Positions 1 to 31,378 of a stretch of DNA of 64,000 nt are shown here, piece after piece. The position numbers and the translations under genes were made by a program. Positions within the stretch are counted from its first letter, which is position 1. Every line of letters begins with the position of its first letter. The notes under the pieces are model-generated. The model had not been told where the DNA came from and made no database searches. It was given only the letters and a program-made list of their open reading frames with translations. Source of the stretch: a virus; the IMG/VR virus record IMGVR_UViG_3300020720_000005, positions 1-64,000 of that record; one strand, given 5' to 3'.

Positions 1-34
1 TATATACGTAACCCAAAACACAGAAAGGCTGATC

Positions 35-739: not shown

Positions 740-748
740 GGATATAAC

Positions 749-1885: not shown

Positions 1886-2541
1886 TGGAATTTAATTATA
1901 TAGAAGACGGTATTGATGCAGTTGTTATCGATAACTTCTATACTGAAGAACAACTCAAAGAAATTATGCTTGAGTTAAAGTGGTTGACTAAACCAGCAAT
2001 TTTGCATGGTCCAGATAAACTTGCTTCTGCGAGGGATACGTCAACTAATGAAATTGCTACATCTAAGAAAGGTATATTTCTAGAAGAAGTATATAAAGAT
2101 TGGAGACATTCTGCGTTAATTAGCCATCCAATGGCTAATTTTTCAAAACCTGAAGTAAGAAATAAATTGCTTGAGTTTAATTCTTTATTTAAAATTTTAT
2201 ATCATTGTGATAGCAGAACGCATTTGTTATCATATTATGAGAATTCAGATTACTATAAACCCCATGTTGATGTAACTGTTTTCACAATACTAAATTATTT
2301 CTTTAATGAACCACGTAAATTTTCTGGTGGAAATATAAAACTTTTTTCTGAAACTTCAAATAAGCAAGCAGAAATTGAACTTAAAAATAATAGAGTTATT
2401 TTGCTTGCTGGATGTACTGCTCATGAGGTAACAGAAATTAAATCAGAACTCAATAATAGTTTGAGTGGTGATGGTAGATATTGTAATGCAATTTTTCAAA
2501 CATTACGTGGGGATCCTCCTCAACAACCGAAAGATAGATAA
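1885..2541 (+). CDS. 2OG-Fe(II) oxygenase-like protein
   Basis: A 218-residue protein with the signature of prolyl-hydroxylase-type 2-oxoglutarate/Fe(II) dioxygenases: an HxD iron motif at H127-D129 (KPHVDV), a distal iron-ligand histidine at H180 (CTAHEV) and a 2-oxoglutarate-binding arginine near R198. Such enzymes hydroxylate proteins, nucleic acids or small molecules; the substrate here is unknown. It overlaps its neighbours by one base at each end. It is one of eleven oxygenase-like genes in the window, but lies apart from the main cluster. Confidence 0.72.
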   Translation: MEFNYIEDGIDAVVIDNFYTEEQLKEIMLELKWLTKPAILHGPDKLASARDTSTNEIATSKKGIFLEEVYKDWRHSALISHPMANFSKPEVRNKLLEFNSLFKILYHCDSRTHLLSYYENSDYYKPHVDVTVFTILNYFFNEPRKFSGGNIKLFSETSNKQAEIELKNNRVILLAGCTAHEVTEIKSELNNSLSGDGRYCNAIFQTLRGDPPQQPKDR

Positions 2542-3434
2542 TGATTCTAATTGATTATTCACAGGTTGCTCTTGCAGCCATTTTGACATTCCAACGTGAG
2601 TTGAAGGGTACTGAGTCTGAGATTAAGAATCTCATTCGTCACGTAACTTTATCTACAATTAAATCATATAAGAAAAAGTATGGCAAAGAATATGGTGATG
2701 TAGTTATCTGTTGTGATGGGCGTAAATACTGGCGCAAAGAATTCTTTGAATATTACAAAGGTATGCGCAAGAGCAATCGTGAGAAATCTGATCTAGACTG
2801 GGGATTGATCTTTGATACATTATCAGAGATGCGAACTGACCTTGCTACATATTTCCCATATAAAGTTATTCACGTTGATCGCGCAGAAGCTGATGATATT
2901 GTTGCTGTTCTCACAAAGTACGCACAAGAAAATGAATTGGTTCAAGAGGGTTTGATTGAAGAGTCTCAAAAGATTCTTATTCTTTCTTCTGACAAAGACT
3001 TTAAACAATTACAACTATATCCAAATGTCAAGCAATGGTCTCCGATGCAGAAAAAATATATCACTGCAACTAAACAAGAAATCATTGAACATAAGATTGA
3101 ACATATCGTAAAGGGTGATGCTGGCGATGGAGTGCCAAACATTCTAAGCAAAGACGATGTTTTTATGGTTGGTGAACGTCAAAAACCTATGAGCGCAAAA
3201 CGTCTTCAAGAATTCTTTGATAATGGTTTTATTGCTTGTAAGAGTGATGAGGAACGTCGCAACTGGCAACGTAACGCAACTCTAGTTGACTTTGATTTTA
3301 TTCCAGAAGATGTTTCAAAAACTATTATTGACACATACCTAAATACTAAACCGACAGGTGATAAGATGGCGATTATGAATTATCTAATCGAAAACAAATG
3401 TCGTTTATTGTTAGATGAACTAGAGGACTTTTAA
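2541..3434 (+). CDS. rnh: T4-type RNase H (5'-3' flap exonuclease)
   Basis: A 297-residue FEN/PIN-type nuclease matching T4 RNase H in size (T4: 305 aa). Acidic metal ligands are present in order: D5 (LIDYS), D59 (CDGRKYW), E116/D118/D119 (EADD), D151/D153 (SSDKDF) and D193/D196 (GDAGDGVPN, the helix-hairpin-helix region). It removes RNA primers and flaps during lagging-strand synthesis, working with gp32. It overlaps the upstream stop by one base. Confidence 0.93.
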   Translation: MILIDYSQVALAAILTFQRELKGTESEIKNLIRHVTLSTIKSYKKKYGKEYGDVVICCDGRKYWRKEFFEYYKGMRKSNREKSDLDWGLIFDTLSEMRTDLATYFPYKVIHVDRAEADDIVAVLTKYAQENELVQEGLIEESQKILILSSDKDFKQLQLYPNVKQWSPMQKKYITATKQEIIEHKIEHIVKGDAGDGVPNILSKDDVFMVGERQKPMSAKRLQEFFDNGFIACKSDEERRNWQRNATLVDFDFIPEDVSKTIIDTYLNTKPTGDKMAIMNYLIENKCRLLLDELEDF

Positions 3435-3435
3435 T

Positions 3436-3867
3436 ATGCGTAAATATGTAACTCAAATGCTTGAGGAGATCCAAAAAGATCCAAAGTGTATTGATGGGTA
3501 TAAGGGTGATGCTGTTCTTAAATTAATTTTTGAATATGCATTTATTGAAGAAAAGAAAATGATTCTTCCTGAAGGTACACCACCTTTTAAACCTGCAGCC
3601 GAACCATTGGGTATGACACCAACTAATCTATTCAGCGAAATGCGTAGATTATATGTTTTCTGTCGAGAAGATTTGACAAAACTAAAGCGTGAGGGATTGT
3701 TTATCTCTATGCTTGAAGGTTGTCATCCTACTGAAGCAGAAGTCTTGATTGCAGTTAAAGACCAGACACTACATAAAAAATATCCAAAGATCACACGAAA
3801 ATTGGTAACTGATGCTGGGTTTATTCCACCAGTTGAGAAGAAAGCCAAAGAAAGTGCGACATCTTGA
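3436..3867 (+). CDS. DUF6433-like conserved T4-like phage protein
   Basis: A 143-residue protein resembling the DUF6433 group of T4-like phage proteins: MRKYVTQMLEEI at the start, a central PPFKPAAEPLGMTPTNLF stretch and a C-terminal EAEVLIAVKDQTLHKKYP segment. Function is not established. It starts one base after rnh stops, so it is probably co-translated with it. Confidence 0.65.
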   Translation: MRKYVTQMLEEIQKDPKCIDGYKGDAVLKLIFEYAFIEEKKMILPEGTPPFKPAAEPLGMTPTNLFSEMRRLYVFCREDLTKLKREGLFISMLEGCHPTEAEVLIAVKDQTLHKKYPKITRKLVTDAGFIPPVEKKAKESATS

Positions 3868-4072
3868 AGACGAAGACAGAGACTTTATTTTATTCCTTTT
3901 AAGTTTAGAAGAGGATGAGTTCAAAATGATACTCAACTCTATGACTGAACCTGAAGCCATGATAGTATTAAACAATATCCAACTAGCAAGAGAAGAATTG
4001 TTTGATGATATGATGGAGAAAGAAGGAATGAAAGCAGCAGCGGAAGTTATCAACAAAATCAAAAACCTTTAA
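3854..4072 (+). CDS. Small acidic protein, probable GTG start
   Basis: An acidic 72-residue helical protein. An ATG start at 3812 would overlap the upstream gene by 56 bp. A GTG at 3854, preceded by an AAAG purine run, reduces the overlap to 14 bp and starts just before the acidic stretch HLEDEDRDF, so I prefer it. No family recognised. The exact start is uncertain. Confidence 0.55.
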   Translation: MRHLEDEDRDFILFLLSLEEDEFKMILNSMTEPEAMIVLNNIQLAREELFDDMMEKEGMKAAAEVINKIKNL

Positions 4073-4088
4073 TTATGGAGTTTATATT

Positions 4089-4841
4089 ATGCCTAATTGG
4101 TGTGACAATACATTAACAATTACCCATCCAGATAAATCTAAGATTGATGCTATAGAAGCAAATCTTAAAAGCGATAACATTCAAATATTCAACACCATTT
4201 ATCCTAATCCAAGTGGAGAGTGGGATTATGAATGGTCAGTTAATAATTGGGGTACCAAATGGGATGCTATGATTCATGACTGGGAACGACAAGATGATAA
4301 TACTATTTGGGTATCTTTTGATTCTGCTTGGTCACCACCATTAGCACTCTATGAGTTTATGGAAGAAAACGGATATACTGTTGAAGCAATATATTGGGAG
4401 CCTGGGATGGGTTTCTGTGGTCGTTTTGCTGATGGTTATGATGACTTCTATGAATATGACATTAGCGATCGCGATTCATTAGAAAATCTACCAGATGAAC
4501 TGTTAGACTTCACTGATCTAATTGGTCGCCATGAAGATTGGGTCGCTGAAGAAGAAGCTGATCGTGAGCGTGAAGAATATGAAGCCACTGTTACTGAGTG
4601 GTATCCTGTTGAAACTAATCCCCATTACGTAGGTTTCTATGAGACAAAAGAAGAAGGCAACTGGCCATTCTATAAATTTGCTCATTGGAATGGCAAGAAA
4701 TGGACTGTTGATGGTAAGAAACCAAAGTTCAAAATTTCAGGCTGGCGTGGTTTGAATGAAGATCCAGCAATTCTTACTAATGAAAATGTTGACGATATGC
4801 TACAGAACATGATGAAAGATATGGGATTCGAAAAGGTATAA
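4089..4841 (+). CDS. Api92-like ferredoxin-fold protein (DUF1281-type)
   Basis: A 250-residue protein beginning MPNWCDNTLTI, the hallmark of the Api92/YubB-like ferredoxin-fold family (DUF1281). It continues with the characteristic WGTKWD, FDSAWSPP and EPGMGFCGRF segments. The family is widespread on phages and plasmids and has no firm biochemical role. The strongly acidic region (about 125-175, rich in D and E) and the C-terminal WYPVETNPHYVGFY repeat-like part are typical of long members. Confidence 0.8.
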   Translation: MPNWCDNTLTITHPDKSKIDAIEANLKSDNIQIFNTIYPNPSGEWDYEWSVNNWGTKWDAMIHDWERQDDNTIWVSFDSAWSPPLALYEFMEENGYTVEAIYWEPGMGFCGRFADGYDDFYEYDISDRDSLENLPDELLDFTDLIGRHEDWVAEEEADREREEYEATVTEWYPVETNPHYVGFYETKEEGNWPFYKFAHWNGKKWTVDGKKPKFKISGWRGLNEDPAILTNENVDDMLQNMMKDMGFEKV

Positions 4842-4843
4842 TA

Positions 4844-5599
4844 ATGTTTTGGATTAAACCAAGCACAATTAATGTGGATTGTTTTACAGCAGATGAGATT
4901 GTTTATAATAATTTCAAAATTGATAGAGCACGAGAATTTTTACCAAGTTGGTGGAAAAATCTTCCAAACAATAAAAAGATAAAAGCAAACCAAGATCCAA
5001 GTTCTAATTTAACTATTAATCAGTTAAATTTAAAACATTGCAATGGTTTTAGAGATTTATTTGCAGAAGGTTTTATATTTCCTTCATGGCTTGATTGTCA
5101 GATAGAAATGCTTGATGACAATAAATTTTATATCTCAGGACATGTTGTACCAACAGTTAATGTTGAAGTTGGATACCATGGTAGAGATCAAACTGGTTAT
5201 GAAATATATCCTGATTGTGCTCAATTAAAATTAATTTCTCCATGGTTCTTTGAAGAAAAGAGTGGAGTAAAATTTAGTTGGAATCAATGCATGTGGAATA
5301 ACACATCATACCTTAATGATATGCATATACTTCCAGCAGTTATAGATTATAAAACTCAAAAAACAACTAACATAAGCGTCTTTATTAAAAAGAAATGTAT
5401 CGTTAAATTAAATGCGGGAGATCCATTAATCCACATCATACCACTATCTGACAAAAAAGTAAAAATTACAAATCATCTTTTAAGTAGAGAAGACTTCGTT
5501 AAAAGATACAGTGTTGAGATGAATGCAGGAAATTACAGGAATGTTAAAAAAGTGAAAGCACCAGTTGAAAAGAAATGTCCTTTTGGGTTTGGCCGATGA
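4844..5599 (+). CDS. Hypothetical protein, unassigned
   Basis: A 251-residue protein without a family I can name. Visible features are an aromatic N-terminal half (SWWKNLP near 35, FIFPSWLDCQIEM near 80) and conserved-looking HVVPTVNVEVGYHGRD, suggesting a beta-rich globular fold. The C-terminus is lysine-rich (RNVKKVKAPVEKKC). It sits two bases after the Api92-like gene and overlaps the dCMP deaminase start (ATGA), so it is expressed with both. Confidence 0.6.
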   Translation: MFWIKPSTINVDCFTADEIVYNNFKIDRAREFLPSWWKNLPNNKKIKANQDPSSNLTINQLNLKHCNGFRDLFAEGFIFPSWLDCQIEMLDDNKFYISGHVVPTVNVEVGYHGRDQTGYEIYPDCAQLKLISPWFFEEKSGVKFSWNQCMWNNTSYLNDMHILPAVIDYKTQKTTNISVFIKKKCIVKLNAGDPLIHIIPLSDKKVKITNHLLSREDFVKRYSVEMNAGNYRNVKKVKAPVEKKCPFGFGR

Positions 5600-11881: not shown

Positions 11882-11882
11882 T

Positions 11883-11956: not shown

Positions 11957-11959
11957 ATT

Positions 11960-12033: not shown

Positions 12034-12064
12034 AATTAATGAGGTAATAAGAAAAGAGGTAATC

Positions 12065-12538
12065 ATGCGTAAGGCGATCAACATTGATGAAGTTAGAGAA
12101 TTCATCATGGCACAGACACCAGAAACCAAAGTATATATCGGTGGTGACTCTGAACGATTTCTAATAGGAAAGGATTGGTACGCAGATTACATTATGGTTG
12201 TTGTTGTTCATATCAATGGAAACAATGGCTGTAAAATCTTTGGTGAAGTACAACGTGAACGTGACTGGGATCAGAAACGAGACAAGCCACGTATGCGTCT
12301 TATGAATGAAGTTTATAAGATTGCTGAATTGTATTTAAAATTACATGATGTGTTAGAAGATCGTGAAGTGGAAGTTCATCTAGATATTAATCCAAATGAA
12401 ATGCATGGATCATCTTGCGTAATCAATGAAGCAACTGGTTACATTCGTGGCATGTGTAACGTAATTCCTATGGTCAAACCAAAAGCATTCGCTGCATCTT
12501 ATGCTGCTGATAGATACAAGTCATATATGGCAGCATAA
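12065..12538 (+). CDS. RNase H-like YkuK-type (DUF458) protein
   Basis: A 157-residue protein with acidic motifs placed as in the YkuK/DUF458 RNase H-like group: GGDSERF (about 26-32), an E in the central strand (EVQRERDWD), and HLDINPNEMHGSS (about 107-119). These suggest a two-metal RNase H fold. The role in phage is not established. It is preceded by an AAGAGGTAATC ribosome binding site and followed by a strong terminator. Confidence 0.7.
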   Translation: MRKAINIDEVREFIMAQTPETKVYIGGDSERFLIGKDWYADYIMVVVVHINGNNGCKIFGEVQRERDWDQKRDKPRMRLMNEVYKIAELYLKLHDVLEDREVEVHLDINPNEMHGSSCVINEATGYIRGMCNVIPMVKPKAFAASYAADRYKSYMAA

Positions 12539-12581
12539 ATAAGATACCAGCTAGACTGGAATCATGCAGAAATGCATTTCA

Positions 12582-12608
12582 GAGCAGTAGGAAACTACTG
12601 CTCTTTTT
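12582..12608 (+). terminator. Rho-independent terminator
   Basis: Perfect 9-bp stem GAGCAGTAG/CTACTGCTC with a GAAA tetraloop, then TTTTT. It separates the YkuK-like gene from the oxygenase cassette. Confidence 0.92.
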
Positions 12609-12611
12609 CAT

Positions 12612-12650
12612 CTAAATATATTTGCTTTGCAATAAACTTTAAAGTATAAT
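12612..12650 (+). promoter_or_regulatory. Promoter region of the oxygenase cassette
   Basis: It contains CTAAATA (12612-12618), a late-promoter-like box, and a sigma70-like pair TTGCTT (12622-12627) and TATAAT (12645-12650) at 17-bp spacing. Both could start transcription of the cassette, giving early and late expression. The first gene starts at 12673 with a GAGGAAA ribosome binding site. Confidence 0.6.
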
Positions 12651-12672
12651 TGTTATTACATGAGGAAAAATA

Positions 12673-13248
12673 ATGCACAATGTGTTAGTCATAGACGATG
12701 TTATTGATGAAGAATCTCAAGATTTATTAGAGAACAGCATATTCTCTCCGCAAACTCAGTGGACATTTGGAAGAACTGTTTTCTGTGATAAACACTTAGA
12801 GGTTACTGACGCACAGAGAAAATCATTAATGTCATTCACTAAATCACTTTATAGAAACGATGATAATTTTTCAGATAAAGATTTAGGTTTGTATACTAGA
12901 CCACTTCTTGGTAGGTTTAATAATCTATTGACAGCAAGAATCCAGTTACAACTTCCAATCATAACAGAATTAAATAAAAAATATGGCGTGCCCCATGTTG
13001 ATGGTGTGCGCCCATTTCCATTTAAAGTTGCTGTTTATTATGTTAATGAAGTAGATGGACCAACTGTATTGTTCAAACAAACGACAAATACATCTACTCC
13101 AGAAGAAATCAAAGCAGGTAATGTTGATGTTGCTTGTGAAATAGAACCAAAAAAAGGAAGATTAATTATATTTGATGGAAACATATATCATGCAGTTGGA
13201 AAACCTAAAACAGATTTGAGATGTATAATTAATTACAATTTTATATGA
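12673..13248 (+). CDS. 2OG-Fe(II) oxygenase (P4H-like)
   Basis: A 191-residue double-stranded beta-helix enzyme. The iron triad is H108/D110 (PHVDGV) and H173 (YHAVGKP), with R183 placed to bind 2-oxoglutarate. The strand after the HxD (FKVAVYYVNEVDGPTVLF) follows the prolyl-4-hydroxylase pattern. It is the first gene of a tightly overlapping cassette of oxygenases and a carbamoyltransferase. Substrate unknown. Confidence 0.78.
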   Translation: MHNVLVIDDVIDEESQDLLENSIFSPQTQWTFGRTVFCDKHLEVTDAQRKSLMSFTKSLYRNDDNFSDKDLGLYTRPLLGRFNNLLTARIQLQLPIITELNKKYGVPHVDGVRPFPFKVAVYYVNEVDGPTVLFKQTTNTSTPEEIKAGNVDVACEIEPKKGRLIIFDGNIYHAVGKPKTDLRCIINYNFI

Positions 13249-13898
13249 TACATATTCTTGATAACTTTTACACAAACCCACAAGAAGTAACAAAGTTACT
13301 GAACAATGATTACCCCATTTCTGGTTGTGGCACTGGGAATAGAAGTATTCCATTACAAGATATGAATCCTTCATTGTATAATGATTTTTGTGGGGCAATA
13401 TACAACATACATAATATAAATCCAACTGGTTTAAAACTTACTACTTTCTTCATGGAGCATGAATCAAATCCAATTGAAGTATTTAATAAGAAATGGATTC
13501 ATATAGATGGCAAGAATCCAAATATCTGCATGATGAGTATGGAAGAATATAAATTAATTCTATGTGGTCAGATTTTTCTAAGCGAAGATCCAGATCCAGA
13601 ATGTGGAGTTAAGATATGCGAGTTAAAACCAGAAGTAAAATGGACTGAGAAAGAATTGATTGAGAATTGTATCGACAATTATACTCTACCAAGAAACAAG
13701 TATGATGCTGGTATTATTGACATTCAAGAATATGAAAGATTACATGCAGAATACCACAATAATTTTAATTTGACCTGTGATATTAAAAATAAGTATAATA
13801 GAATGGTAAGCTGGAAAGCAGGAACTCTTCATGGTGACCCAATAACTAATAAAATGCGTAAAAGATTAACTCAATACTTCTTTGTTGAAAGATTATGA
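13245..13898 (+). CDS. 2OG-Fe(II) oxygenase-like protein
   Basis: A 217-residue protein with H86/D88 (WIHIDG), distal H196 (GTLHGDP) and arginines R205/R207 near the C-terminus, spaced as in 2OG-Fe(II) dioxygenases. It carries an insertion of about 70 residues between strands (around 110-180, rich in charged residues) that is absent from its neighbours. Its ATG overlaps the previous stop (ATGA), so translation is coupled. Confidence 0.7.
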   Translation: MIHILDNFYTNPQEVTKLLNNDYPISGCGTGNRSIPLQDMNPSLYNDFCGAIYNIHNINPTGLKLTTFFMEHESNPIEVFNKKWIHIDGKNPNICMMSMEEYKLILCGQIFLSEDPDPECGVKICELKPEVKWTEKELIENCIDNYTLPRNKYDAGIIDIQEYERLHAEYHNNFNLTCDIKNKYNRMVSWKAGTLHGDPITNKMRKRLTQYFFVERL

Positions 13899-14623
13899 AA
13901 ACATATTCAGTTCAAACATATGATAATGTAGTCCCAGATGATTTACGTTGGAGAGTCTGGGATTATATACAAAAACAAACCTTCCACGCTACACGCAAAG
14001 ATGTCAATTATCCAGAAGTAGGTTCTGTCATATATTATAAACCCATAGAAAATAAAAAAGAATACCTAGACGAAACTTTTCCATCAGTGAATAACCAATA
14101 CATGCATCGTTGTGTTTTTGGTTTACGTGGAGAAGGACATCCAGTTATTGAAGAACTTTGGGGGTATATAAACAAAAATATTGGTGGTAATTTTATTATT
14201 GATGGTGATACTGAAGGTATGGCTGATCCAAAGTTAGGAACAAATGCCTATTCTCTTTGCTATGTTAATGCTCAACCATCAGAAACAATCAAACGATCGC
14301 ATGCTATACATAGAGATACTATCAATCTAGAAGAAGAAAATCATTATACTATACTGTATATGGCAAATCTTCAATGGTATCCAACTTGGATGGCAGAGAA
14401 TGTATTCTATTCAGATGATGAAACAACAGGCGATCATCAAGAATACCAAAAAGGTTTTGGTCAGTCAAGAGGATTTGGAGTTGGTTATCCATTTGCAATT
14501 GTACCACCAATTCCTGGACGTGTAGTTGTATATGATGGCAGAGCACTTCATACAACAAAACCAACAGCCCCATGGGCAGAAGAAATGCGATACGCAGTAG
14601 TATTCAGAGTAAGGAAAATATGA
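13895..14623 (+). CDS. 2OG-Fe(II) oxygenase-like protein
   Basis: A 242-residue protein with H139-R-D141 (AIHRDTI), distal H218 (GRALHTTKP) and R231. The strand after the HxD (HYTILYMANLQWYPTW) fits the fold. A loop of about 25 residues around 172-198 (DDETTGDHQEY...) is unusual. Start and stop overlap the neighbouring genes by 4 bp each, a pattern of strict coupling. Confidence 0.74.
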   Translation: MKTYSVQTYDNVVPDDLRWRVWDYIQKQTFHATRKDVNYPEVGSVIYYKPIENKKEYLDETFPSVNNQYMHRCVFGLRGEGHPVIEELWGYINKNIGGNFIIDGDTEGMADPKLGTNAYSLCYVNAQPSETIKRSHAIHRDTINLEEENHYTILYMANLQWYPTWMAENVFYSDDETTGDHQEYQKGFGQSRGFGVGYPFAIVPPIPGRVVVYDGRALHTTKPTAPWAEEMRYAVVFRVRKI

Positions 14624-15312
14624 ACGAAGAACAAATGTCACCAGTTAAAAAGACTGTCCTACAATGTGATGGTCCAGAAACTATACATCAGTTGTGGTCA
14701 ACGCCAATTGGTGTGTCAAGACCATTTACACAAGACTTCATTGAGAAGTTGAAAGAAGATGTATTCAAGTACGTTCTTCCACGTGCTCAAAAGAATAGCG
14801 TAAATGTTTGGGATCTACCTGATTTGCCTGATACTATTCTAGAAGTCCAGAAAAAGAAATTGGAGTTGGCTGAGAAAACTCTAACATTACATTCAGAGAT
14901 GCCACTGCCACCAATGCGTATTGCTAAAGGTTACTTCAGACATATTCATCCAAATGTTGAATATCGTATTACTCCACACCAGCATGGTTCAACTCTTGGT
15001 GTTGGTGTTTTCTATATTAAACTACAAAATGAAAATCCAGGTAATATGGTGTTCATTGATCCACGTGGTGGCGTCAATTGGTCTAATCAGTTTAGCCCAT
15101 TCAAACGATTACGATTAGAGGAAGGTATGTTGATTGTAAATCCAGGTTATCTAATCCATTATATTGAACCAACTGATTATCAGAAACCAGTTTATCAAGA
15201 AAGAGTGATGATCGTGTCCAACATACATAGAATGTATGAGGATTGGATTAAAGTGTTAGAAAATCAAGATAATGAGAAAATGATTAAGTATATGGCAGGT
15301 AATGAAGGTTAA
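14620..15312 (+). CDS. 2OG-Fe(II) oxygenase, PF13759-like
   Basis: A 230-residue protein of the putative 2OG-Fe(II) oxygenase family PF13759: HQH at H120/H122 followed by GVGVFYIKLQNENPGNMVFIDPRGG, distal H180 (LIHYIEP) and R195. In this family an HxH motif replaces the usual HxD. I chose the ATG at 14620 (ATGA overlap with the upstream stop) over an upstream ATG at 14572. Such proteins are common in marine T4-like phages and their targets are unknown. Confidence 0.74.
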   Translation: MNEEQMSPVKKTVLQCDGPETIHQLWSTPIGVSRPFTQDFIEKLKEDVFKYVLPRAQKNSVNVWDLPDLPDTILEVQKKKLELAEKTLTLHSEMPLPPMRIAKGYFRHIHPNVEYRITPHQHGSTLGVGVFYIKLQNENPGNMVFIDPRGGVNWSNQFSPFKRLRLEEGMLIVNPGYLIHYIEPTDYQKPVYQERVMIVSNIHRMYEDWIKVLENQDNEKMIKYMAGNEG

Positions 15313-15322
15313 GGAGAACAAT

Positions 15323-15523
15323 ATGACAGAAGAAATTAAACAACAATCAGCTTGGGCTGAACAATATCATGCTGAGAAATTGCTTAAGAAAGCAAAGAAA
15401 AAAGCAAGAAAAAGTTTACAATCAAAAGGTTTATCTAAATCAGAGGCAACGAAACTTGTAAAGGGAGCAGTAAATAATATTGCCAACAAACCAATGCGTC
15501 GTGCTGCTGGTCGAGGTGGATAA
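15323..15523 (+). CDS. Small basic Lys/Ala-rich protein
   Basis: A 66-residue basic helical protein (KLLKKAKKKARKSLQSKG, ending MRRAAGRGG). An AAGGAGAAC ribosome binding site sits 7 nt before this ATG, which is preferred to an upstream ATG at 15302. The charge suggests nucleic-acid binding, but no family is recognised. It is the only non-enzymatic member of the oxygenase cassette. Confidence 0.6.
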   Translation: MTEEIKQQSAWAEQYHAEKLLKKAKKKARKSLQSKGLSKSEATKLVKGAVNNIANKPMRRAAGRGG

Positions 15524-16179
15524 TGTTTATTGGTTTAGAATTTGAGAGTAAATCTCCATTTCTACCTGAATTTAGTATACCTCTTAATAAGACGGTATTT
15601 AATCGATATGCTGAGTTGGGTAATGTTGTTTTAGAAAAAGAAACTTATATTCTCGAAACAACAAAACCATATCCAGAACATGATAGTCATGATTGGCTAA
15701 CAAATCGATTATATGAATACAACTTGCTTGACTACTCTTGTGAGTATCCTGTCTTAGAAGAATTTAAAAAATTCATATATGATTCGTATGTAGAATACTG
15801 TGGTATAATTAATGCGCCAGTTGAACAAGTATATGCAAATTGCTGGGCAAATGTTATTCGAAATAATAATAGGACTATTACTCCCCATACACATTCTGAT
15901 GCTCATATAGATGCGCCTTTAAACTATTCTTACGTATCAGGCAATATATGTATTAGTGCTAATCAAACAAAAACACATTATGCAAATCCATTTTTACCAA
16001 AACAAGCATATGGTATTGCTAACATACCAGGAGAGTTAATATTATTTCCCTCATGGGTTCTCCATTGGGTTGATAAAAATGAAAACGAAGAGCCAAGAAT
16101 TAGTATAGCATTTGACATTGTTACAGAAGAAGTATTTAAACTACCATCCCAACGTAAAAATAATTTTAGAAAATTATGA
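15523..16179 (+). CDS. 2OG-Fe(II) oxygenase, PF13759-like
   Basis: A 218-residue protein with H122/H124 (PHTHSDA), a strand with SGNICIS, the segment IPGELILFPSWVLHWV containing distal H181, and R192 (EPRISIAFDI). It is clearly paralogous to the gene at 19131: both share the C-terminal FPS-(6-8)-PR-SIAFDI pattern and a KL ending. One-base overlap with the preceding gene and a 4-bp overlap with the next. Confidence 0.75.
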   Translation: MFIGLEFESKSPFLPEFSIPLNKTVFNRYAELGNVVLEKETYILETTKPYPEHDSHDWLTNRLYEYNLLDYSCEYPVLEEFKKFIYDSYVEYCGIINAPVEQVYANCWANVIRNNNRTITPHTHSDAHIDAPLNYSYVSGNICISANQTKTHYANPFLPKQAYGIANIPGELILFPSWVLHWVDKNENEEPRISIAFDIVTEEVFKLPSQRKNNFRKL

Positions 16180-16772
16180 TCGAAGTAATTGATAATTTGT
16201 TAACCCCATCGTATTGTGATTCAATTTACAATTTGGCCAAATATCATTTGTCGTATCAATATTCATTAAAAACATCATACACTAATGAACAAGATGCGCC
16301 ACCATTATTGTATGATCCATTAGTAAAAGATGCTGGTCAATTATCATGCGTTGTACAAGATAGCGATCTTAGACAAAATATAACATTTGGTTGGGCATAT
16401 GAACAATTGAAACCAATATTCTATACAGTAAAGGATAAATTTCCTGAGTTAGAACTTGGTGGTAGTAACAGAGTTAAATTTAATATTTTACTACAACAAA
16501 AAGAGTTTCAGGGATTTTATAATCAACCACATGTTGATGTTCCAAGTCCAACGTATACAATGGTTTATTATTTGAATGATTGCGATGGTGATACTGTTAT
16601 CTTTAATGAAAAATATACTGATAATCATGAGCCATTAAAACTAACAGTGGCTCAGCGTGTTTCTCCTAAGAAAAATAGAGCAGTGATATTTGAAGCAGAT
16701 AGATATCACGCTTCTTCTAATCCTGTTACATCAGAAAATAGATTTGTAATTAATTGGGTATTTTGGAAATGA
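16176..16772 (+). CDS. 2OG-Fe(II) oxygenase (P4H-like)
   Basis: A 198-residue protein with H119/D121 (PHVDVP), the strand TMVYYLNDCDGDTVIF, distal H178 (RYHASSNP) and R189. It resembles the cassette's first gene (12673) most closely, including a late ALL-beta region with PKKNRAVIFEADRYH against PKKGRLIIFDGNIYH. Its stop overlaps the carbamoyltransferase start (ATGA), so the two are translated together. Confidence 0.8.
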   Translation: MIEVIDNLLTPSYCDSIYNLAKYHLSYQYSLKTSYTNEQDAPPLLYDPLVKDAGQLSCVVQDSDLRQNITFGWAYEQLKPIFYTVKDKFPELELGGSNRVKFNILLQQKEFQGFYNQPHVDVPSPTYTMVYYLNDCDGDTVIFNEKYTDNHEPLKLTVAQRVSPKKNRAVIFEADRYHASSNPVTSENRFVINWVFWK

Positions 16773-18493
16773 ATAAAATGAATAAAGAAGATATTTGGAT
16801 TCTTTCAGTTGCAGGATATATGCACAATGGATCTTGTTGTTTAATGAAAAATGGTGAAATTGTTTTCTACATAGAAGAAGAAAGATTAAGTAGAATTAAA
16901 GCAGAGAATATGCCAATGTTGGCTATTCTTGAGGTGAAGAAGTATACTGATAGATTAGATTATCTGTTAATGGATGAACCCAATAAAAGAAATAATGAAA
17001 ATCCATATATCAGACTTTGTCAGAAACTTGGTTTAATCCCAACAGGAGATTTTAAGGGATTACCTGATCCATCAAAGACATTACACCACGATGCCCATGC
17101 GGCATCTGCTTTTTATAGTTCTGGATTTGATAAAGCAGTTTGTGTAACTGTTGATGGTGGTGGTTCTTATAAGCAGTGGTCAGATGATATAATGCACGAT
17201 CGTTTACCACAAAATTCTATGAAAACTGAAGATGATATGTCAGTTAATAGAACACTGCATGGTTTAAATGTTGGAGTAGAAACTGAATCTGTTTATTTTA
17301 TGGAATATCCATCAAAGACTGAACTTTTGTATAAACGACTATACAATCCACTTTTACATAATTCTTACAACATCAATAATCTATATTTTTTTGAACCACA
17401 CATTGGTCCAGGATTTTTATATGCAGCAGTTGCTGCTCATCTTGGTCATGGTTCATTGGAATGTGGTAAGGCAATGGGATGGAGTTCTTACGGTAAACCT
17501 AATCCAAATTTAAATTTGTACAGAGAAGATGGATACGTTGATCGAAATATGTACTTACCAAATACAAAAGACATATACATGACTACGTTGACTGGGTTTG
17601 ATCGATATCCAGAAGAGGATTGGTGTTATGCTGTTCAAAAAGGTACTGAGAAATATGTTCTAAACTTAATATTATCTGCCATCAATAATAGTGGTTGTAA
17701 GAATGTAGTTCTCAGTGGTGGTTATATGCTTAATTGTGTAGCGAACTACGAATACTTAAAGCATTTACCAGAGGGATGTAAACTATACATTGATCCACCT
17801 TCTAGTGATGCAGGTTTATCAATTGGATTGGCAAAGAAATTTTGGAATAGCAAATTTCCTTCACAACCAAAGAAACAAGAAACATTTTATCTTGGTCCAC
17901 CACCTGATTACAAATTTGATTTGCCTTGCAATGAATTTTCTAGTAAAATAGTATCGTATGCTGATGTTGTTGATCTGTTGGTTGATGGTAATATTATTGC
18001 AATGTATCAAGGTAGATCAGAAGCTGGACCAAGAGCACTAGGCAATAGATCTATCCTTTATGATCCACGTGTGAAGGATGGTAAAGATTTTGTCAATAGA
18101 ATAAAGAACAGAGAATGGTATAGACCATTTGCTGGAACTATTTTAAAAGAAGATGTTCATGAATGGTTTGATATGCGTGGGCTTGAAGATTCTCCATTCA
18201 TGATGTATGCTGTAAATGCAACAGATAAGGCGAAAGAAATTGTACCAGCAATTATCCACGTTGATGGAACATGTCGTATTCAAACAGTAACATTGGAAGA
18301 AAATTTACACTACTACAATTTGATAACAAAATTCAAAGAAGTCACTGGTGTTCCAATTTTATTCAATACTAGTTTTAACTTGGCTGGCGATCCTTTAGTT
18401 GAAACAATGACAGATGCGCTGGATACACTACGTAGATCAGAAATAAAATATTTGTACTTACCAGAAAGAAGCGAATTGATATGGAAATTATAG
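16769..18493 (+). CDS. NodU/CmcH-family carbamoyltransferase
   Basis: A 574-residue enzyme of the O-carbamoyltransferase family, which transfers a carbamoyl group from carbamoyl phosphate (via carbamoyl-AMP) to hydroxyl groups. Visible motifs are the Kae1-like N-terminal loop (SVAGYMHNGSCCL), HHDAHAASAFYSSGF (about 106-120), VTVDGGG, LSGGYMLNCVAN, PPSSDAGLSIGLA, and the C-terminal YrdC-like half with GRSEAGPRALGNRSIL (about 415-430) and REWYRPFAGTIL. The length is normal. It lies in the middle of eight oxygenase genes, so it may carbamoylate hydroxyls that they create. An ATG at 16754 is a poorer start. Confidence 0.93.
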   Translation: MNKMNKEDIWILSVAGYMHNGSCCLMKNGEIVFYIEEERLSRIKAENMPMLAILEVKKYTDRLDYLLMDEPNKRNNENPYIRLCQKLGLIPTGDFKGLPDPSKTLHHDAHAASAFYSSGFDKAVCVTVDGGGSYKQWSDDIMHDRLPQNSMKTEDDMSVNRTLHGLNVGVETESVYFMEYPSKTELLYKRLYNPLLHNSYNINNLYFFEPHIGPGFLYAAVAAHLGHGSLECGKAMGWSSYGKPNPNLNLYREDGYVDRNMYLPNTKDIYMTTLTGFDRYPEEDWCYAVQKGTEKYVLNLILSAINNSGCKNVVLSGGYMLNCVANYEYLKHLPEGCKLYIDPPSSDAGLSIGLAKKFWNSKFPSQPKKQETFYLGPPPDYKFDLPCNEFSSKIVSYADVVDLLVDGNIIAMYQGRSEAGPRALGNRSILYDPRVKDGKDFVNRIKNREWYRPFAGTILKEDVHEWFDMRGLEDSPFMMYAVNATDKAKEIVPAIIHVDGTCRIQTVTLEENLHYYNLITKFKEVTGVPILFNTSFNLAGDPLVETMTDALDTLRRSEIKYLYLPERSELIWKL

Positions 18494-19131
18494 ACCCATG
18501 GTCACCAATTATTTTTAGAGACAGTTACTTGGGGACTGATTTCAAAAAAATGATTGAGCGATATAAAACATTCGAGAAAGATATTCCAGGTAATGGAGAT
18601 GTTGAGCGTGATGGTGGACAAAGTTCTGTGTCATATTCTAGAACTACTCACGATCATCCACATCTTTGGCCAGAACTGGAAGGTTTCAGAAATCATTTAG
18701 ATTCTATTCTAGACGAAGTGCTTACTCGCTGGCAAATTAATGGCATTCCATATAGACCAACAGATAGTTGGATGAATGAACATCCAAAAGGAGCATGGAC
18801 AGATGAACACAATCATAAGGGAGCAAACTTTGTAGTAGTTTATTATATCCATGTTCCAGAAAATAGTGGCACGTTAATGGTAAGAGATCCAATGGAATAT
18901 CATTGGGGAGGTTCTCATGGAATGCAAATTAGAGGAACTGCTGGTGATAGTATTTGGTATCACATAGGTCCAGTAAAGACTGGTGATATAATTATGTTTC
19001 CTGGATGGATATACCACAAAACAGAAAAAAATCAAGTTGATGAATCAAGATATGTGATGAGTATAAATTTTTCCAGTGTTAGAATGAATACTAAACTTTT
19101 GGAAGATAATAACAATAAAGTGTATGGATAA
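18481..19131 (+). CDS. 2OG-Fe(II) oxygenase, PF13759-like
   Basis: A 216-residue protein with H110/H112 (EHNHKGANF), VVVYYIHVPENSGTLMVRDP, the segment IIMFPGWIYHKTE with distal H179, and R190 (ESRYVMSINF). It overlaps the carbamoyltransferase end by 13 bp. The N-terminal 100 residues contain the extra TTHDHPHLWPEL stretch, rich in histidine. Confidence 0.77.
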   Translation: MEIIDPWSPIIFRDSYLGTDFKKMIERYKTFEKDIPGNGDVERDGGQSSVSYSRTTHDHPHLWPELEGFRNHLDSILDEVLTRWQINGIPYRPTDSWMNEHPKGAWTDEHNHKGANFVVVYYIHVPENSGTLMVRDPMEYHWGGSHGMQIRGTAGDSIWYHIGPVKTGDIIMFPGWIYHKTEKNQVDESRYVMSINFSSVRMNTKLLEDNNNKVYG

Positions 19132-19802
19132 TGCTAATATTTTTAAATTACCCAACGAACTCTGACTTTATACCAGAATGGACTTTACCAATCTTTAAAA
19201 CAAATTACTCTGATTCAAATAAATTCATTGAGATAATTTTAAATAAAGAACAATCTATACTGGATTTGAGTAAAGATGACTACTCAAAATATGGAACTAT
19301 GAAACCAGGAGAAACTCTTAATAATTGGGTGAGTGCTAGTATACCACATTATAATTTCTTTGAAAGTGATGATGAAGAAATCATTGGTCTAAAAAATTTT
19401 ATAAAGAAATCATATGTAGATATGGTGACTGGAATGAAACTACCAGATGAAGAAGTTTATATTCATGGATGGATTAATATAGTTCGAAAAGGTAGAAAGA
19501 TAGAAGCGCACAATCATACTAATGGCCATCTTGAATCAAAAACCTATTCAAGCGCATATCTTTCTGGTAATCTTTGTATAAATGCAGAAAACACAACTAC
19601 CAATTATAGATCACCTTACCTTGAGCAGATGTGGCAAAGAATACCAAATGTTAATGGGGATATGGTTTTGTTTCCAAGTTTCGTTATGCACGATACATCT
19701 ATAAACAATTCAGAAACTCCAAGATTATCAATCGCATTTGATATTTTACCAGAACGTGTGTATATGATGTTGAATAACAAAAATATTTTTTGTAAACTTT
19801 GA
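19131..19802 (+). CDS. 2OG-Fe(II) oxygenase, PF13759-like
   Basis: A 223-residue paralogue of the gene at 15523: H127/H129 (AHNHTNG), YLSGNLCIN, DMVLFPSFVMHDT with distal H187, and R198 (TPRLSIAFDI). It is the last oxygenase of the cassette and overlaps the preceding gene by one base. Confidence 0.75.
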   Translation: MLIFLNYPTNSDFIPEWTLPIFKTNYSDSNKFIEIILNKEQSILDLSKDDYSKYGTMKPGETLNNWVSASIPHYNFFESDDEEIIGLKNFIKKSYVDMVTGMKLPDEEVYIHGWINIVRKGRKIEAHNHTNGHLESKTYSSAYLSGNLCINAENTTTNYRSPYLEQMWQRIPNVNGDMVLFPSFVMHDTSINNSETPRLSIAFDILPERVYMMLNNKNIFCKL

Positions 19803-20504: not shown

Positions 20505-20609
20505 ATGATAATTGAAAAGGATCTGAAGTCGGTAAAACCCTCAAAAGTTGAGGGGAATGCAAAAAATACCTTTACTTTAATCCGATTCTGTAGTAAACTA
20601 TATGTATAA
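20505..20609 (+). CDS. Short ORF between two promoters
   Basis: A 34-codon ORF starting MIIEKDLKSVKPSKVEG, 6 nt after a TATACT box and without a Shine-Dalgarno sequence. It runs through a second promoter and ends inside the AAA+ gene's start region. It may be a small leaderless protein or only the leader of the downstream transcript. Weak evidence. Confidence 0.3.
   Translation: MIIEKDLKSVKPSKVEGNAKNTFTLIRFCSKLYV
20571..20599 (+). promoter_or_regulatory. Sigma70-like promoter of the AAA+ gene
   Basis: TTTACT (20571-20576), 17-bp spacer, TAAACT (20594-20599). The first ATG (20602) lies only 2 nt after the -10 box, so translation probably begins at the next ATGs (20620 or 20632). Confidence 0.6.
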
Positions 20610-20619
20610 ATTGATTGAA

Positions 20620-21528
20620 ATGGAAAATACTATGAAAACTCTGATCTCCTTTGACTCCGCTTCTGGAAAATTCGTTGGTACTGTTGATGGAAAAGTTGTT
20701 GTTCGTTCTAAGTACGAATCAGCTGTTAAAGCTCGTCTGAACGAAATGTCTGGCACTATCGCTGAAGCCCAGAAAGCATTCGAAGAGAAATCTGAGAAGT
20801 TCGATATCAACACTCGTTTCGGTTTCGTTGAGAAACTCGTGACTATGGTTGCGTCTGGTGTTCAACCCTCCGCTGTTATCACTGGTGAAGGTGGTCTCGG
20901 TAAGACTTATACCGTGACTAAGACTTTGGAAGCCCATGGCTACAAAGATATCTCTGACCTCGCTGACTTCGATGTCGGTGCTGTTATCTCTACTCGCAAA
21001 TGTTTTACTTTCGTCAAGGGTTATAGCACTGCCAAGGGTTTGTATCGTACCCTGTTCGAAAACAATAAGTCAATTATCGTTTTTGATGACTGCGATGCTG
21101 TTCTTAAAGATCCAGTTGCTCTTAACATCCTCAAAGGTGCGTTGGATTCCTACGGTAAGCGTATTATCTCTTGGAATGCTGATATGCGTGACGACGACCT
21201 ACCTAAGTCATTCAACTTTGAAGGTCGTGTGATCTTTATCTCTAACATGAGTCAAGATAAAATCGACCAAGCGATCCGTAGTCGCTCTATGATGATTGAC
21301 TTATCCATGACTACTAGCCAAAAGATTGACCGCATGGAACATATCTCTAAGTTAGAAGAATTCCTCCCTGAGTACGACCAGTTGGTTAAATCTGATGCGC
21401 TCGCCCTAATCCGTGCGATCAAGGATGATGTTAAGGAAATTTCCCTCCGTACTCTTATCGCTGTTGCCAAGGTTCGTGCTTCCAATAAAGATTGGAAAGA
21501 CCTTGCAACTTATATGTTAACTGCTTAA
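20620..21528 (+). CDS. AAA+ ATPase
   Basis: A protein of about 302 residues with Walker A GEGGLGKT, Walker B IIVFDDCDAV, a sensor-1-like asparagine in VIFISNM and an arginine pair RSRSMM. This is a single AAA+ module with an N-terminal extension of about 80 residues. Related phage ATPases remodel protein or nucleoprotein complexes; the target is unknown. The start at 20620 (or 20632) is chosen because the first ATG (20602) would lie at or upstream of the transcription start. Codon use is more GC-rich than in the neighbours, as in highly expressed early genes. Confidence 0.8.
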   Translation: MENTMKTLISFDSASGKFVGTVDGKVVVRSKYESAVKARLNEMSGTIAEAQKAFEEKSEKFDINTRFGFVEKLVTMVASGVQPSAVITGEGGLGKTYTVTKTLEAHGYKDISDLADFDVGAVISTRKCFTFVKGYSTAKGLYRTLFENNKSIIVFDDCDAVLKDPVALNILKGALDSYGKRIISWNADMRDDDLPKSFNFEGRVIFISNMSQDKIDQAIRSRSMMIDLSMTTSQKIDRMEHISKLEEFLPEYDQLVKSDALALIRAIKDDVKEISLRTLIAVAKVRASNKDWKDLATYMLTA

Positions 21529-29662: not shown

Positions 29663-30235
29663 ATGTTTAAAGATCTAATAATTGTACCAAATTTTTTTGA
29701 TAATCCAGAAGAGATTGTTAATATAGCAAAATCTAACACATTTTATGCTCACACAGAGCACCCCAAAGATAAGGGTACGCAAATTTATTATGGTGGCAAA
29801 CGATCTGAACAATTAGATGAATATACAAATAATATCTTAAGTGATACTTTTATAAAAAAAGTAGTTTTTGATAATATTCCGCCAGACTCAACTAGAAATG
29901 TTGAATATATGGGTAGTGCATATTTTCATTATTTTTCAAAAGAATATCTTGGTGGTAAATCTGAAATACATCAAGACTCTGAATTTCTTTCTGGTGTAAT
30001 TTACTTAAACGACAAACCATTAGAAAACCCAAACGACCATGGAACTATCGTCTTTAATCAAAATAATGATTCATTTATTATGCCATATATATTTAATACA
30101 TTAATTATGTATCGCTCTGATTATATTCATGCCCCACTTGCAGGATTTGGTGAAGATAAAAATAATGGTAGATTATCCCTAGTATTTACTGTACAAAAAC
30201 TTAAATTAGAAATTTCTCGAAAAACTTTATCATGA
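29663..30235 (+). CDS. 2OG-Fe(II) oxygenase-like protein
   Basis: A 190-residue protein with H103/D105 (EIHQDS), SGVIYLND, distal H156 (DYIHAPLAGFG) and R170 (GRLSLVFTV). It is outside the main oxygenase cassette but in a coupled pair with the next gene (4-bp overlap). An AAAGGAAAT ribosome binding site precedes it. Substrate unknown. Confidence 0.76.
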   Translation: MFKDLIIVPNFFDNPEEIVNIAKSNTFYAHTEHPKDKGTQIYYGGKRSEQLDEYTNNILSDTFIKKVVFDNIPPDSTRNVEYMGSAYFHYFSKEYLGGKSEIHQDSEFLSGVIYLNDKPLENPNDHGTIVFNQNNDSFIMPYIFNTLIMYRSDYIHAPLAGFGEDKNNGRLSLVFTVQKLKLEISRKTLS

Positions 30236-30774
30236 ATATTTTTTATCTTGACAACGATCCCCGTAAGTGTGCAGAAATGCACGTTGATAAACATTGCGTA
30301 AAGATGATTCTCGAATATGCACAATTACTTTCTACTGCTCACCGCTATCTTGACGGTATTCTTACTAATGGTTTATCTAAGTCTGGTCGCAAACGGAAGC
30401 AATACATTCTCTCCGATAATCGTGAGCATATATTGTATAGTGCTACTCATATTAACCATCCCTCTGCTGTTTGGGTAAGACAGTCGCTAGAAAATTATCA
30501 ATGGCTTTATAATTTGTTTGTTGACTTATGTTACGAATACAAATTTAGATATAATCGTGATCATAAAACATCATTGTTAATGTCAACATTACAATTTCCA
30601 CCTAATCATATTCCAAAAGATAAATCATTTACTGAACCAACACCAGCGATGCCTGACAAATATAAAGTAGCTGGCAATTCTGTGTTATCGTATCATAATT
30701 ACTATATTGGCGATAAAGCAGAAATGTTTACTTGGAAAAATCGTCAACCACCTAAGTGGATTGCATACGTATAA
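30232..30774 (+). CDS. Conserved T4-like phage protein, function unassigned
   Basis: A 180-residue protein starting MNIFYLDNDPRKCAEMH, with DKHCVKMILEYAQLLSTAHRYLDG and later HPSAVWVRQSLENYQWLYNLF. This is a pattern I recognise from marine T4-like phages as a conserved hypothetical. Clustered histidines (H17, H21, H37, H75) and acidic residues could form a catalytic or metal site. I cannot name the function. Confidence 0.68.
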   Translation: MNIFYLDNDPRKCAEMHVDKHCVKMILEYAQLLSTAHRYLDGILTNGLSKSGRKRKQYILSDNREHILYSATHINHPSAVWVRQSLENYQWLYNLFVDLCYEYKFRYNRDHKTSLLMSTLQFPPNHIPKDKSFTEPTPAMPDKYKVAGNSVLSYHNYYIGDKAEMFTWKNRQPPKWIAYV

Positions 30775-30775
30775 G

Positions 30776-31378
30776 ATGCAGTACATTAATTTATTTCCAA
30801 CACCACTATACGTTGATGAACAATTAGAATTAGCAAAAGAAATTCTTCCAGTGGCAGAAGATTATCTAAATGTATATGGTGACAAATATCTGAATCAACA
30901 AAATTATGATTCAACATATAATATTAATTCTGCTGGATTAAAACAAAGAACAGATGCAAGATTAATTAATCTCAATAATTATATTAAGACTGCATCTAGA
31001 AAATATTTTGAAGATAATTGTATAGATTCTACTGGATGGTCTTTGACACCATATTATTTGTTTAATAAAATAACATCTGGTGGAGCGCATCCACCCCACC
31101 CACACCCAGGATCATTATTATCTGGATGTTTTTATTTAAAAGTACCAAAAGATTCTGCGCCAATTGTATACAATGATCCAAGAGACTATTGGAAATTTAT
31201 ACAATATCCAATTAAATTTGGAGATACTATAGAAAAATATAATTTATTTCCAGAATATGTTATTAACCCAGTTGAAGGAACATTTTTAATGTGGCCAAGT
31301 TGGTTATGTCATGAAGTTCCAGCAAGTGCTAATACTGAAGACAGAATTTGTGTTGCGTTTAATCTTCAACCAAACTAA
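30776..31378 (+). CDS. 2OG-Fe(II) oxygenase, PF13759-like
   Basis: A 200-residue protein with histidines H105/H108/H110 (AHPPHPHPG), SGCFYLKVPKDSAPIVYNDPR, distal H179 (WLCHEVP) and R190. The start at 30776 follows the previous stop by one base and puts the INLFPTPLYV strand at the N-terminus as in the family; an ATG at 30707 would lie inside the upstream gene. Confidence 0.75.
   Translation: MQYINLFPTPLYVDEQLELAKEILPVAEDYLNVYGDKYLNQQNYDSTYNINSAGLKQRTDARLINLNNYIKTASRKYFEDNCIDSTGWSLTPYYLFNKITSGGAHPPHPHPGSLLSGCFYLKVPKDSAPIVYNDPRDYWKFIQYPIKFGDTIEKYNLFPEYVINPVEGTFLMWPSWLCHEVPASANTEDRICVAFNLQPN

Follow-up and report, generated by a model that had tools for sequence, protein, structure and literature searches.

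A freshwater T4-like phage carries, within the 64,000-nt stretch of DNA analysed here (the window), a co-directional cassette of eight 2OG-Fe(II) oxygenases and one carbamoyltransferase (CT). We put at roughly 45% the probability that this cassette forms the tailoring half, rapid in turnover, of a two-part system that hypermodifies DNA bases. What makes DNA bases a live target is an operon in the same phage that encodes a TET/JBP oxygenase, a P-loop kinase and an amino-acid:DNA transferase (ADDT). To our knowledge, DNA hypermodification is established in only a few cultured phages.

Results

The open reading frames bear out the initial annotation, which described eight oxygenase genes and one NodU/CmcH carbamoyltransferase gene at 12673-19802, mostly overlapping by 1-13 bp, and three further oxygenases elsewhere in the window (Table 1). 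All nine cassette genes are intact. O4 probably begins at the in-frame ATG at 14620, giving an overlap with O3 of 4 bp instead of 52, and for the CT, whose called start is TTG, a downstream in-frame ATG is a better fit. The 210-bp gap between O4 and O5 is not empty, since it contains a small conserved basic ORF. The sequence motif preceding O1, CTAAATA, is the putative late-promoter motif of the T4-like phage Aeh1; it is also found before structural genes of the window phage, and of the window's 13 copies, 7 are followed within 100 nt by a gene on the same strand (p = 1e-6 versus permuted motifs). The oxygenase tally is 11 in the window and at least 17, plus TET, in the ~119 kb of the phage examined.

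Table 1. Features of the cassette and its surroundings (window coordinates).
Feature	Position	Strand	Description
Stretch shared with G038	1..5052	.	contig overlap leading to TET-ADDT operon
X1	1885..2541	+	PF13640 oxygenase, outside cassette
RNase H-like gene (PF04308)	12065..12538	+	island left flank; 77-97% identity in relatives
Terminator-like hairpin	12581..12604	+	precedes O1
CTAAATA motif	12612..12618	+	precedes O1
O1	12673..13248	+	P4H-type 2OG-Fe(II) oxygenase; H108, D110, H173, R183; paralogue of O6
O2	13245..13898	+	oxygenase near DUF6445/phrog_1644; H86, D88, H196
O3	13895..14623	+	island core oxygenase; H139, D141, H219, R232; PHD2-like fold
O4	14572..15312	+	island core HxH oxygenase; H136, H138, H196, R211
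Small basic protein	15323..15523	+	66 aa, ...AAGRGG tail; conserved in several relatives
O5	15523..16179	+	PF13759 oxygenase; H122, H124, H181, R192; paralogue of O9
O6	16176..16772	+	P4H-type oxygenase; H119, D121, H178, R189
CT	16754..18493	+	O-carbamoyltransferase; PF02543+PF16861, HHxAH, GPRALGNR
O8	18481..19131	+	PF13759 oxygenase; H110, H112, H179, R190
O9	19131..19802	+	PF13759 oxygenase; H127, H129, H187, R198
AAA-type gene	20602..21528	+	island right flank in many relatives
X2	29663..30235	+	DUF6445-like oxygenase, outside cassette
X3	30707..31378	+	PF13759 oxygenase, outside cassette

Searches of Pfam and PHROGs assigned O5, O8, O9 and, weakly, O4 to PF13759-type families, O6 and, weakly, O1 to PF13640 (P4H), and placed O2 near DUF6445; O3 had no oxygenase match in Pfam, and its sequence has HRD...H...R. 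The HxD/HxH...H metal triad and distal Arg are present in the cassette proteins and retained in nearly all relatives. In the alignments the catalytic residues are fully conserved for O1, O3, O4, O5 and O9, while O6 has one gapped row at these residues, O8 one R to K change, and O2 has lost the distal H in 2 of 8 rows, its R position being poorly aligned. Loss of catalytic residues in most paralogues, named at the outset as grounds for refutation, was not seen. Estimates of dN/dS were ~0.10 for O3 and ~0.07 for O4. These intact oxygenase sites are at odds with the PHROG labels "DNA endonuclease V" (phrog_274) and "minor coat protein" (phrog_1644). Isoelectric points were mostly 5.3-5.8 (7.8 for O4) and do not suggest DNA binding by the oxygenases.

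Models were predicted for two of the eight, O3 (pLDDT 69) and O4 (pLDDT 78), and their double-stranded beta-helices match those of 2OG oxygenases, PHD2/P4H among them (best E = 3e-6 for O3 and 2e-7 for O4; TM ~0.5); as both yielded generic 2OG folds only, the structure search was set aside as a guide to substrate class. An all-against-all comparison gave O1/O6 and O5/O9 as the only clear paralogue pairs and ruled out tandem duplication of a single oxygenase. The proposed expansion to many paralogues is thus unsupported, because most members barely recognise each other by BLAST; the genes are mostly divergent lineages.

The CT contains both domains of the NodU/CmcH/TobZ family (Carbam_trans_N, E = 9e-21; Carbam_trans_C, E = 6e-59) and its two motifs, of which HHxAH is the metal motif. 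It matches TobZ, GdmN and NovN with E values of 2e-45 to 1e-39, resembling the sugar/antibiotic class of carbamoyltransferases. The marks of a 5hmC DNA-carbamoyltransferase, substituted G421/R423 (TobZ numbering) together with a thymidylate-synthase-type enzyme in the phage, were not found: the CT retains G421/R423, where the proven and very distant 5hmC enzyme has C/T, PF00303 and PF02511 are absent from the incomplete genome of the window phage (G000), and PF00303 is absent from a near-complete 174-kb relative. A route to 5hmC through such an enzyme was discarded for want of these two families. Bacterial homologues were not used as a functional guide, since most of the 10 matches on bacterial-genome contigs seem to be viral contigs that were binned into MAGs.

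Next to a tRNA array, the cassette forms a hypervariable island whose gene content turns over between conserved flanks; such turnover would be compatible with the suggested arms race. O3 is known from 22 distinct loci, including that of the window phage, and O3, O4 and the flanking genes are retained in relatives, O3 and O4 being adjacent or close in many. CT is present in few of the relatives' islands. Replacement genes there encode an amidinotransferase (by motif), radical SAM, AMP-ligase and methyltransferase proteins, and further cargo includes ATE_C-like, BKACE, SDR and MaoC genes; the cargo is mostly of amino-acid/acyl chemistry, with sugar genes almost absent. A role for the adjacent GT4 (10628) and SGNH hydrolase (19921) genes is unsupported because they are rarely kept, SGNH occurring in only two other islands and GT4 in no other distinct phage, and both were dropped as pathway members.

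The TET-ADDT operon was reached by contig walking. Window positions 1-5052 are 100% identical to the IMG/VR contig G038, which shares 7810 bp at 99.87% identity with G034, the contig carrying the operon. The operon's gene order is helicase, TET, a glutamine amidotransferase (GATase_6), amidoligase-like, P4H oxygenase, GNAT, PF13759 oxygenase, ADDT and Ploopntkinase3, with family matches to TET/JBP (PF12851, 1.5e-24) and ADDT (PF18724, 3.8e-22). A base hydroxylase, a base kinase and an ADDT, the gene set of thymine hypermodification, are accordingly found in one phage, by contig overlap and family-level identification. The operon lies ~48 kb upstream of the cassette, not inside it; the closest window match of its P4H oxygenase is O6 (32% identity, E = 2e-17) and that of its PF13759 oxygenase is X3 (32%, E = 3e-26). 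Extra oxygenases between TET and ADDT occur in 11 of 65 TET..ADDT operons of relatives.

TET was present in each of the five O3-bearing records whose sequence extends over the helicase locus and in 20/21 lineage members (helicase identity of at least 70%) versus 0/37 sisters. ADDT was detected in 6 of the 15 records with the island, the three near-complete ones among them, and in none of seven other CT phages of 110-345 kb; many Salmonella, Klebsiella and Dickeya phages have relatives of ADDT. The co-occurrence of the operon genes and the island is seen at the level of a single lineage and may therefore reflect descent rather than function. The TET-positive genomes G027 and DLP_6 lack an oxygenase island at the cassette locus. 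The DLP6 paper was considered as proof of modified DNA and rejected, as it mentions a restriction panel without a clear outcome.

The link between CTs and oxygenases recurs in unrelated loci. Across 43 dereplicated CT loci from other phages, 52/239 genes within three genes of the CT encoded oxygenases, versus 14/220 beyond six (OR 4.1, p = 2e-6). That hydroxylation must precede carbamoylation, as the initial annotation had reasoned, is unsupported because in 19 of the 43 loci no oxygenase was detected up to three genes from the CT.

Discussion

Of the earlier interpretation, then, the cassette itself, the CT-oxygenase link and DNA as a live target stand, and paralogue expansion, the hydroxylation prerequisite and the GT4/SGNH role are unsupported or superfluous. 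In the DNA base tailoring proposed here, TET would convert thymine or methylcytosine in DNA to a 5-hydroxymethyl base, as expected from the established TET/JBP families. By analogy with ViI, M6 and phiW-14, the P-loop kinase would activate this base and ADDT would attach an amino-acid-type group. The cassette oxygenases would then hydroxylate or otherwise oxidise the added side chain, and the CT would move a carbamoyl group from carbamoyl-phosphate/ATP onto one side-chain hydroxyl. The product would be a bulky base resistant to host restriction enzymes, and exchange of island genes would alter the final chemical group phage by phage. More tentatively, a fixed TET-kinase-ADDT core combined with a swap-in island of oxygenases and CT (or amidinotransferase, methyltransferase or radical SAM) may decorate bases combinatorially, yielding hydroxylated, O-carbamoylated amino-acid-type bases so far unseen in DNA.

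Support for DNA tailoring comes from the intact genes with active sites conserved in relatives, from the predicted TET-ADDT operon in the same phage with its two oxygenases resembling O6 and X3, from the extra oxygenases in 11 of 65 operons of relatives, and from the distribution of TET and ADDT among O3-bearing and island records versus other CT phages and, for TET, in the lineage versus its sisters. The amino-acid/acyl cargo and the precedent of a phage 5hmC CT (PMC8670742) are also counted in favour. Counted against it are the residues G421/R423, which by sequence set the CT apart from the proven enzyme, the ~48 kb between island and operon, the late-type promoter motif before the cassette, the TET-positive genomes with no island at the locus, and the occurrence of CT with oxygenases in tail-adhesin/heptose loci of phages in which TET and ADDT were undetected.

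Those tail loci suggest a possible but doubtful alternative, that the cassette decorates virion surface proteins (tail fibre or adhesin) or an attached glycan, the CT carbamoylating a sugar or hydroxylated residue with escape from recognition or altered binding of the particle as the result. Members of the other large CT clade directly follow genes for tail fibres and Gly/Cys-rich adhesins, accompanied by a GT9-like protein (67/79 loci), ADP-heptose genes and often 2OG oxygenases and Trp halogenases, and cyanophages S-SSM7, S-CAM3 and P-SSM2 have the same gene order. The sugar/antibiotic look of the cassette CT, and a motif shared with structural genes, are consistent with a virion target. However, the cassette CTs form a clade separate from the tail-locus CTs, no tail genes lie near the cassette, the relatives' cargo is nearly devoid of sugar genes, and neither a GT9-like protein nor ADP-heptose biosynthesis genes were found among the cassette's neighbouring genes. 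A GT9-type heptosyltransferase partner was likewise not detected in a profile search of G000 and its CT-bearing relatives, a search that matched no genome, had no positive control and used a profile without a clear PDB relative.

It is rather unlikely that a small molecule is the island's product, or that a host metabolite, translation factor or envelope glycan is what it modifies during infection. The window island has no scaffold-making enzyme (NRPS, PKS or GT set), and eight oxygenases for one compound from a lytic phage are difficult to account for, even though the relatives' amidinotransferase, AMP-ligase, SDR, BKACE, MaoC and radical SAM genes resemble a natural-product cluster, the fold matches of O4 include the natural-product/sugar-antibiotic oxygenases HygX, AviO1 and EvdO1, those of O3 include 4iw3, a bacterial P4H acting on EF-Tu, and secondary metabolite synthesis or capsule decoration has been proposed for a similar cyanophage cluster (PMC7824862). 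The presence of the operon in the window phage leads us to favour DNA-base tailoring over both a virion or glycan target and a small molecule. That the genes are independent cargo gathered at a tRNA-array hotspot, each with its own substrate and no shared pathway, we regard as improbable: the variable content between conserved flanks, the dispersal of oxygenases over the phage and the divergence of the cassette members would agree with it, but the tight packing with translational overlaps, the proximity of O3 and O4 in many relatives and the significant CT-oxygenase clustering in unrelated loci argue otherwise.

If the cassette acts on DNA, it would offer a modular, rapidly evolving route to diverse base side chains and help account for the more than 12 2OG oxygenases in some T4-like phages; if it acts on virions, the phage coat would bear hydroxylation and carbamoylation. 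With either target, a function would be gained for families now under PHROG labels that misfit their oxygenase sites.

Several known systems invite comparison. Marine cyanophages have up to five 2OG-Fe(II) oxygenases per genome, for which roles in DNA repair or in balancing 2-oxoglutarate were invoked (PMC3037559); they include PF13759 and P4H types, as in the window phage, but are far fewer per genome, and the accessible portion of that source reports no O3/O4-type island. The S-SSM6a/S-SSM7 CT-halogenase-2OGFeDO cluster (PMC7824862) likewise unites a CT with 2OG oxygenases and further modification genes in a single run, but is embedded in a tail-fibre region that also has GT9-like, heptose and halogenase genes, and its CT belongs to the separate clade. 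TobZ, GdmN and NovN share the two-domain architecture, HHxAH and GPRALGNR with the cassette CT; their acceptors are antibiotic sugars or polyketides. The uncultured-phage CT proven by MetaGPA to carbamoylate 5hmC in DNA (PMC8670742) is also phage-encoded and of the NodU/TobZ family, and differs in its diagnostic C/T residues and in co-occurring with a thymidylate-synthase-type hydroxymethyl-base maker, none being found in G000 or the 174-kb relative. Thymidine hypermodification in phages ViI, M6 and phiW-14 proceeds through 5hmdU, a 5hmdU kinase and amine transfer (PMC6449724). The window phage resembles them in its predicted ADDT and P-loop kinase operon, but uses a TET/JBP oxygenase beside a helicase and adds a separate swap-in oxygenase and CT island, undescribed for those systems.

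Organization of the oxygenase cassette

Eight putative 2OG-Fe(II) oxygenase genes (O1-O6, O8 and O9) and a NodU/TobZ-type O-carbamoyltransferase gene (CT) form a one-strand run in which neighbouring genes mostly overlap by 1-13 bp; three further oxygenases (X1-X3) are encoded elsewhere in the window. Pfam and PHROGs searches assigned O6, and weakly O1, to the P4H group (PF13640), and O5, O8 and O9, and weakly O4, to PF13759, placed O2 near DUF6445, and identified CT as Carbam_trans_N/C. No oxygenase match to O3 was found in Pfam. The families phrog_274 (labelled DNA endonuclease V) and phrog_1644 (minor coat protein) both match intact 2OG oxygenases here. The initial annotation took the cassette for an expansion to many paralogues; however, in all-against-all BLAST the only clear paralogue pairs were O1/O6 (35%) and O5/O9 (34%). 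O8 and X3 were distant kin, and what looked like an expansion is therefore a collection of old lineages.

Coordinates of the features discussed, in the window phage's record (G000)
Feature	Positions	Remarks
Segment identical to contig G038	1-5052	100% identity
X1	1885-2541	oxygenase
phrog_7084 protein	4844-5599
Cassette	12673-19802	O1, O2, O3, O4, small ORF, O5, O6, CT, O8, O9
Small Lys/Arg-rich protein	15323-15523	between O4 and O5; C-terminal AAGRGG
CT	16754-18493	O-carbamoyltransferase
X2	29663-30235	oxygenase
X3	30707-31378	PF13759 oxygenase
tmRNA call (ARAGORN, flagged)	34745-35133	tag ANDELFALAA; overlaps start of outer-membrane-like ORF at 35120
Radical SAM cluster, beyond the window	70159-73916	10160-13917 of locus L086; also DctP-type solute-binding (PF03480) and PP-loop-like proteins

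The catalytic residues of the cassette oxygenases are kept across relatives, except in O2 and in single rows of O6 and O8, and H139, D141, H219 and R232 of O3 are invariant in 21 relatives. The predicted structure of O3 (pLDDT 69) resembles PHD2/P4H folds and that of O4 (pLDDT 78) other 2OG oxygenases, including HygX, AviO1 and EvdO1; with TM-scores near 0.5, these models indicate fold class only. Estimates of dN/dS (NG86) were ∼0.10 for O3 and 0.07 for O4 with nearest relatives, and ∼0.2-0.27 for O1, O2, O5 and CT, the latter from divergent pairs with near-saturated dS. The small Lys/Arg-rich protein between O4 and O5, possibly a substrate or regulator, is also kept in four other islands (L117, L126, L131 and L233).

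Upstream of the cassette lie a terminator and a CTAAATA motif, the proposed late promoter of phage Aeh1 (PMC1524935). Of the 13 CTAAATA copies in the window, seven precede a same-strand gene by no more than 100 nt (p 1e-6), and conservation of the copy at the cassette is incomplete, as some relatives do not have it. The T4 late motif TATAAATA is depleted in the whole window (1 copy, 9.4 expected), and the phage may use CTAAATA instead.

A hypervariable island

Scans yielded 28 viral loci with O3 and 11 with O4. The cassette occupies an island at the end of a 26-gene tRNA array, bordered on the left by an RNase H-like gene (77-97% identical among relatives) and on the right, in many relatives, by an AAA gene (71-95%). 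Relatives retain O3 and often O4, while the remaining genes are swapped: for an amidinotransferase-like protein (named by eye from its sequence, with no Pfam match) that comes with an ATE_C-like protein and one more gene, for radical SAM, for a combination of AMP-ligase, SDR, BKACE and MaoC-like genes, for methyltransferases or for other oxygenases. CT occurs in five distinct islands among those examined (the window, L106, L131, L008 and L009). No cultured phage with O3 was found among 50,697 records, in which the one weak match was a single-cell record.

The TET-ADDT operon of this phage

In three near-complete island-bearing relatives, a TET/JBP-type dioxygenase (TET) and an amino-acid:DNA transferase (ADDT) adjoin a helicase gene. 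With the helicase as query, TET lay 3′ of it in 20 of 21 loci at ≥70% helicase identity and in 0 of 37 below 68%. Among 22 records, ADDT was detected in 6/15 island phages and 0/7 other CT phages of 110-345 kb, most negatives on the island side being short fragments. This region lies outside the window contig and was reached by a contig walk, from the window start to G038 and from there to contig G034 (99.87% over 7810 bp); these contigs belong to one population but to separate samples, and the link is therefore at population level rather than within a single virion. G034 encodes helicase, TET, GATase, an amidoligase-like protein (Pfam E 0.011, below cut-off), a P4H oxygenase, GNAT, a PF13759 oxygenase, ADDT and Ploopntkinase3. 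Its two oxygenases best match O6 (32%, E 2e-17) and X3 (32%, E 3e-26), the latter from outside the cassette, and an extra oxygenase stands between TET and ADDT in 11 of 65 relatives' operons. In all, ∼119 kb of this phage encodes TET and at least 17 oxygenases, a count that leaves out a DctP false match and one borderline match.

Upstream of the window start, G038 (also locus L318) carries curlin-like repeats, a CHASE2/cyclase-like protein (670 aa), IscU- and IscA-like genes and an endonuclease-like gene. In front of the radical SAM cluster beyond the window is a tail-fibre-like gene, which encodes a protein with the C-terminal sequence NCHNCNCNC.

Carbamoyltransferases in other phages and possible role of the island

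Across 43 dereplicated CT loci in IMG/VR, oxygenases are enriched close to CT relative to genes more than six away (OR 4.1, p 2e-6); in 24 of these loci an oxygenase lies no more than three genes from CT. Many of these CTs lie downstream of tail-fibre and Gly/Cys-rich adhesin genes, immediately 3′ of a GT9-like gene, and ahead of HldE-type, phosphoheptose isomerase and epimerase genes, with Trp halogenases in some; cyanophages P-SSM2, S-SSM7 and S-CAM3 show the same gene order. Four CT-matching MAG contigs (L092, L094, L097 and L100) resemble virus contigs, with tail adhesins, GT9-like, CT and heptose genes, and look like virus contigs binned into bacteria or archaea. Proteins similar to the phrog_7084 protein adjoin oxygenases and Trp halogenases in loci L056 and L061.

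A 5hmdU route with base kinase and amine transfer is known in hypermodified-thymidine phages (PMC6449724), and according to a 2025 paper (PMC12783734) glycosyl, amino and carbamoyl modifications are usually built on 5-hydroxymethyl-dU/dC. We infer that the island may supply finishing enzymes for a base side chain. The support is co-occurrence within one lineage, however, and two TET-positive genomes, G027 and DLP_6, have no oxygenase island at the locus. Two observations count most against this reading. First, CT plus oxygenases also occur in tail loci of phages where TET and ADDT were not found; those CTs form a clade (95/92) separate from that of the cassette CTs and one jumbo-phage CT (97/83). 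Second, CT does not resemble the enzyme proven on 5-hydroxymethylcytosine in DNA (MetaGPA; PMC8670742), which is very distant from the cassette CTs in the tree and has I, C and T at its diagnostic sites, where the window CT has M, G and R; the G and R are common to all other aligned CTs.

Neither the hypervariable O3/O4 island nor its link to a TET-ADDT operon of the phage that carries it appears to have been described in the literature consulted; CT, 2OG oxygenases, TET/JBP and ADDT are each already known in phages, and a phage CT-halogenase-oxygenase cluster has been described (PMC7824862).
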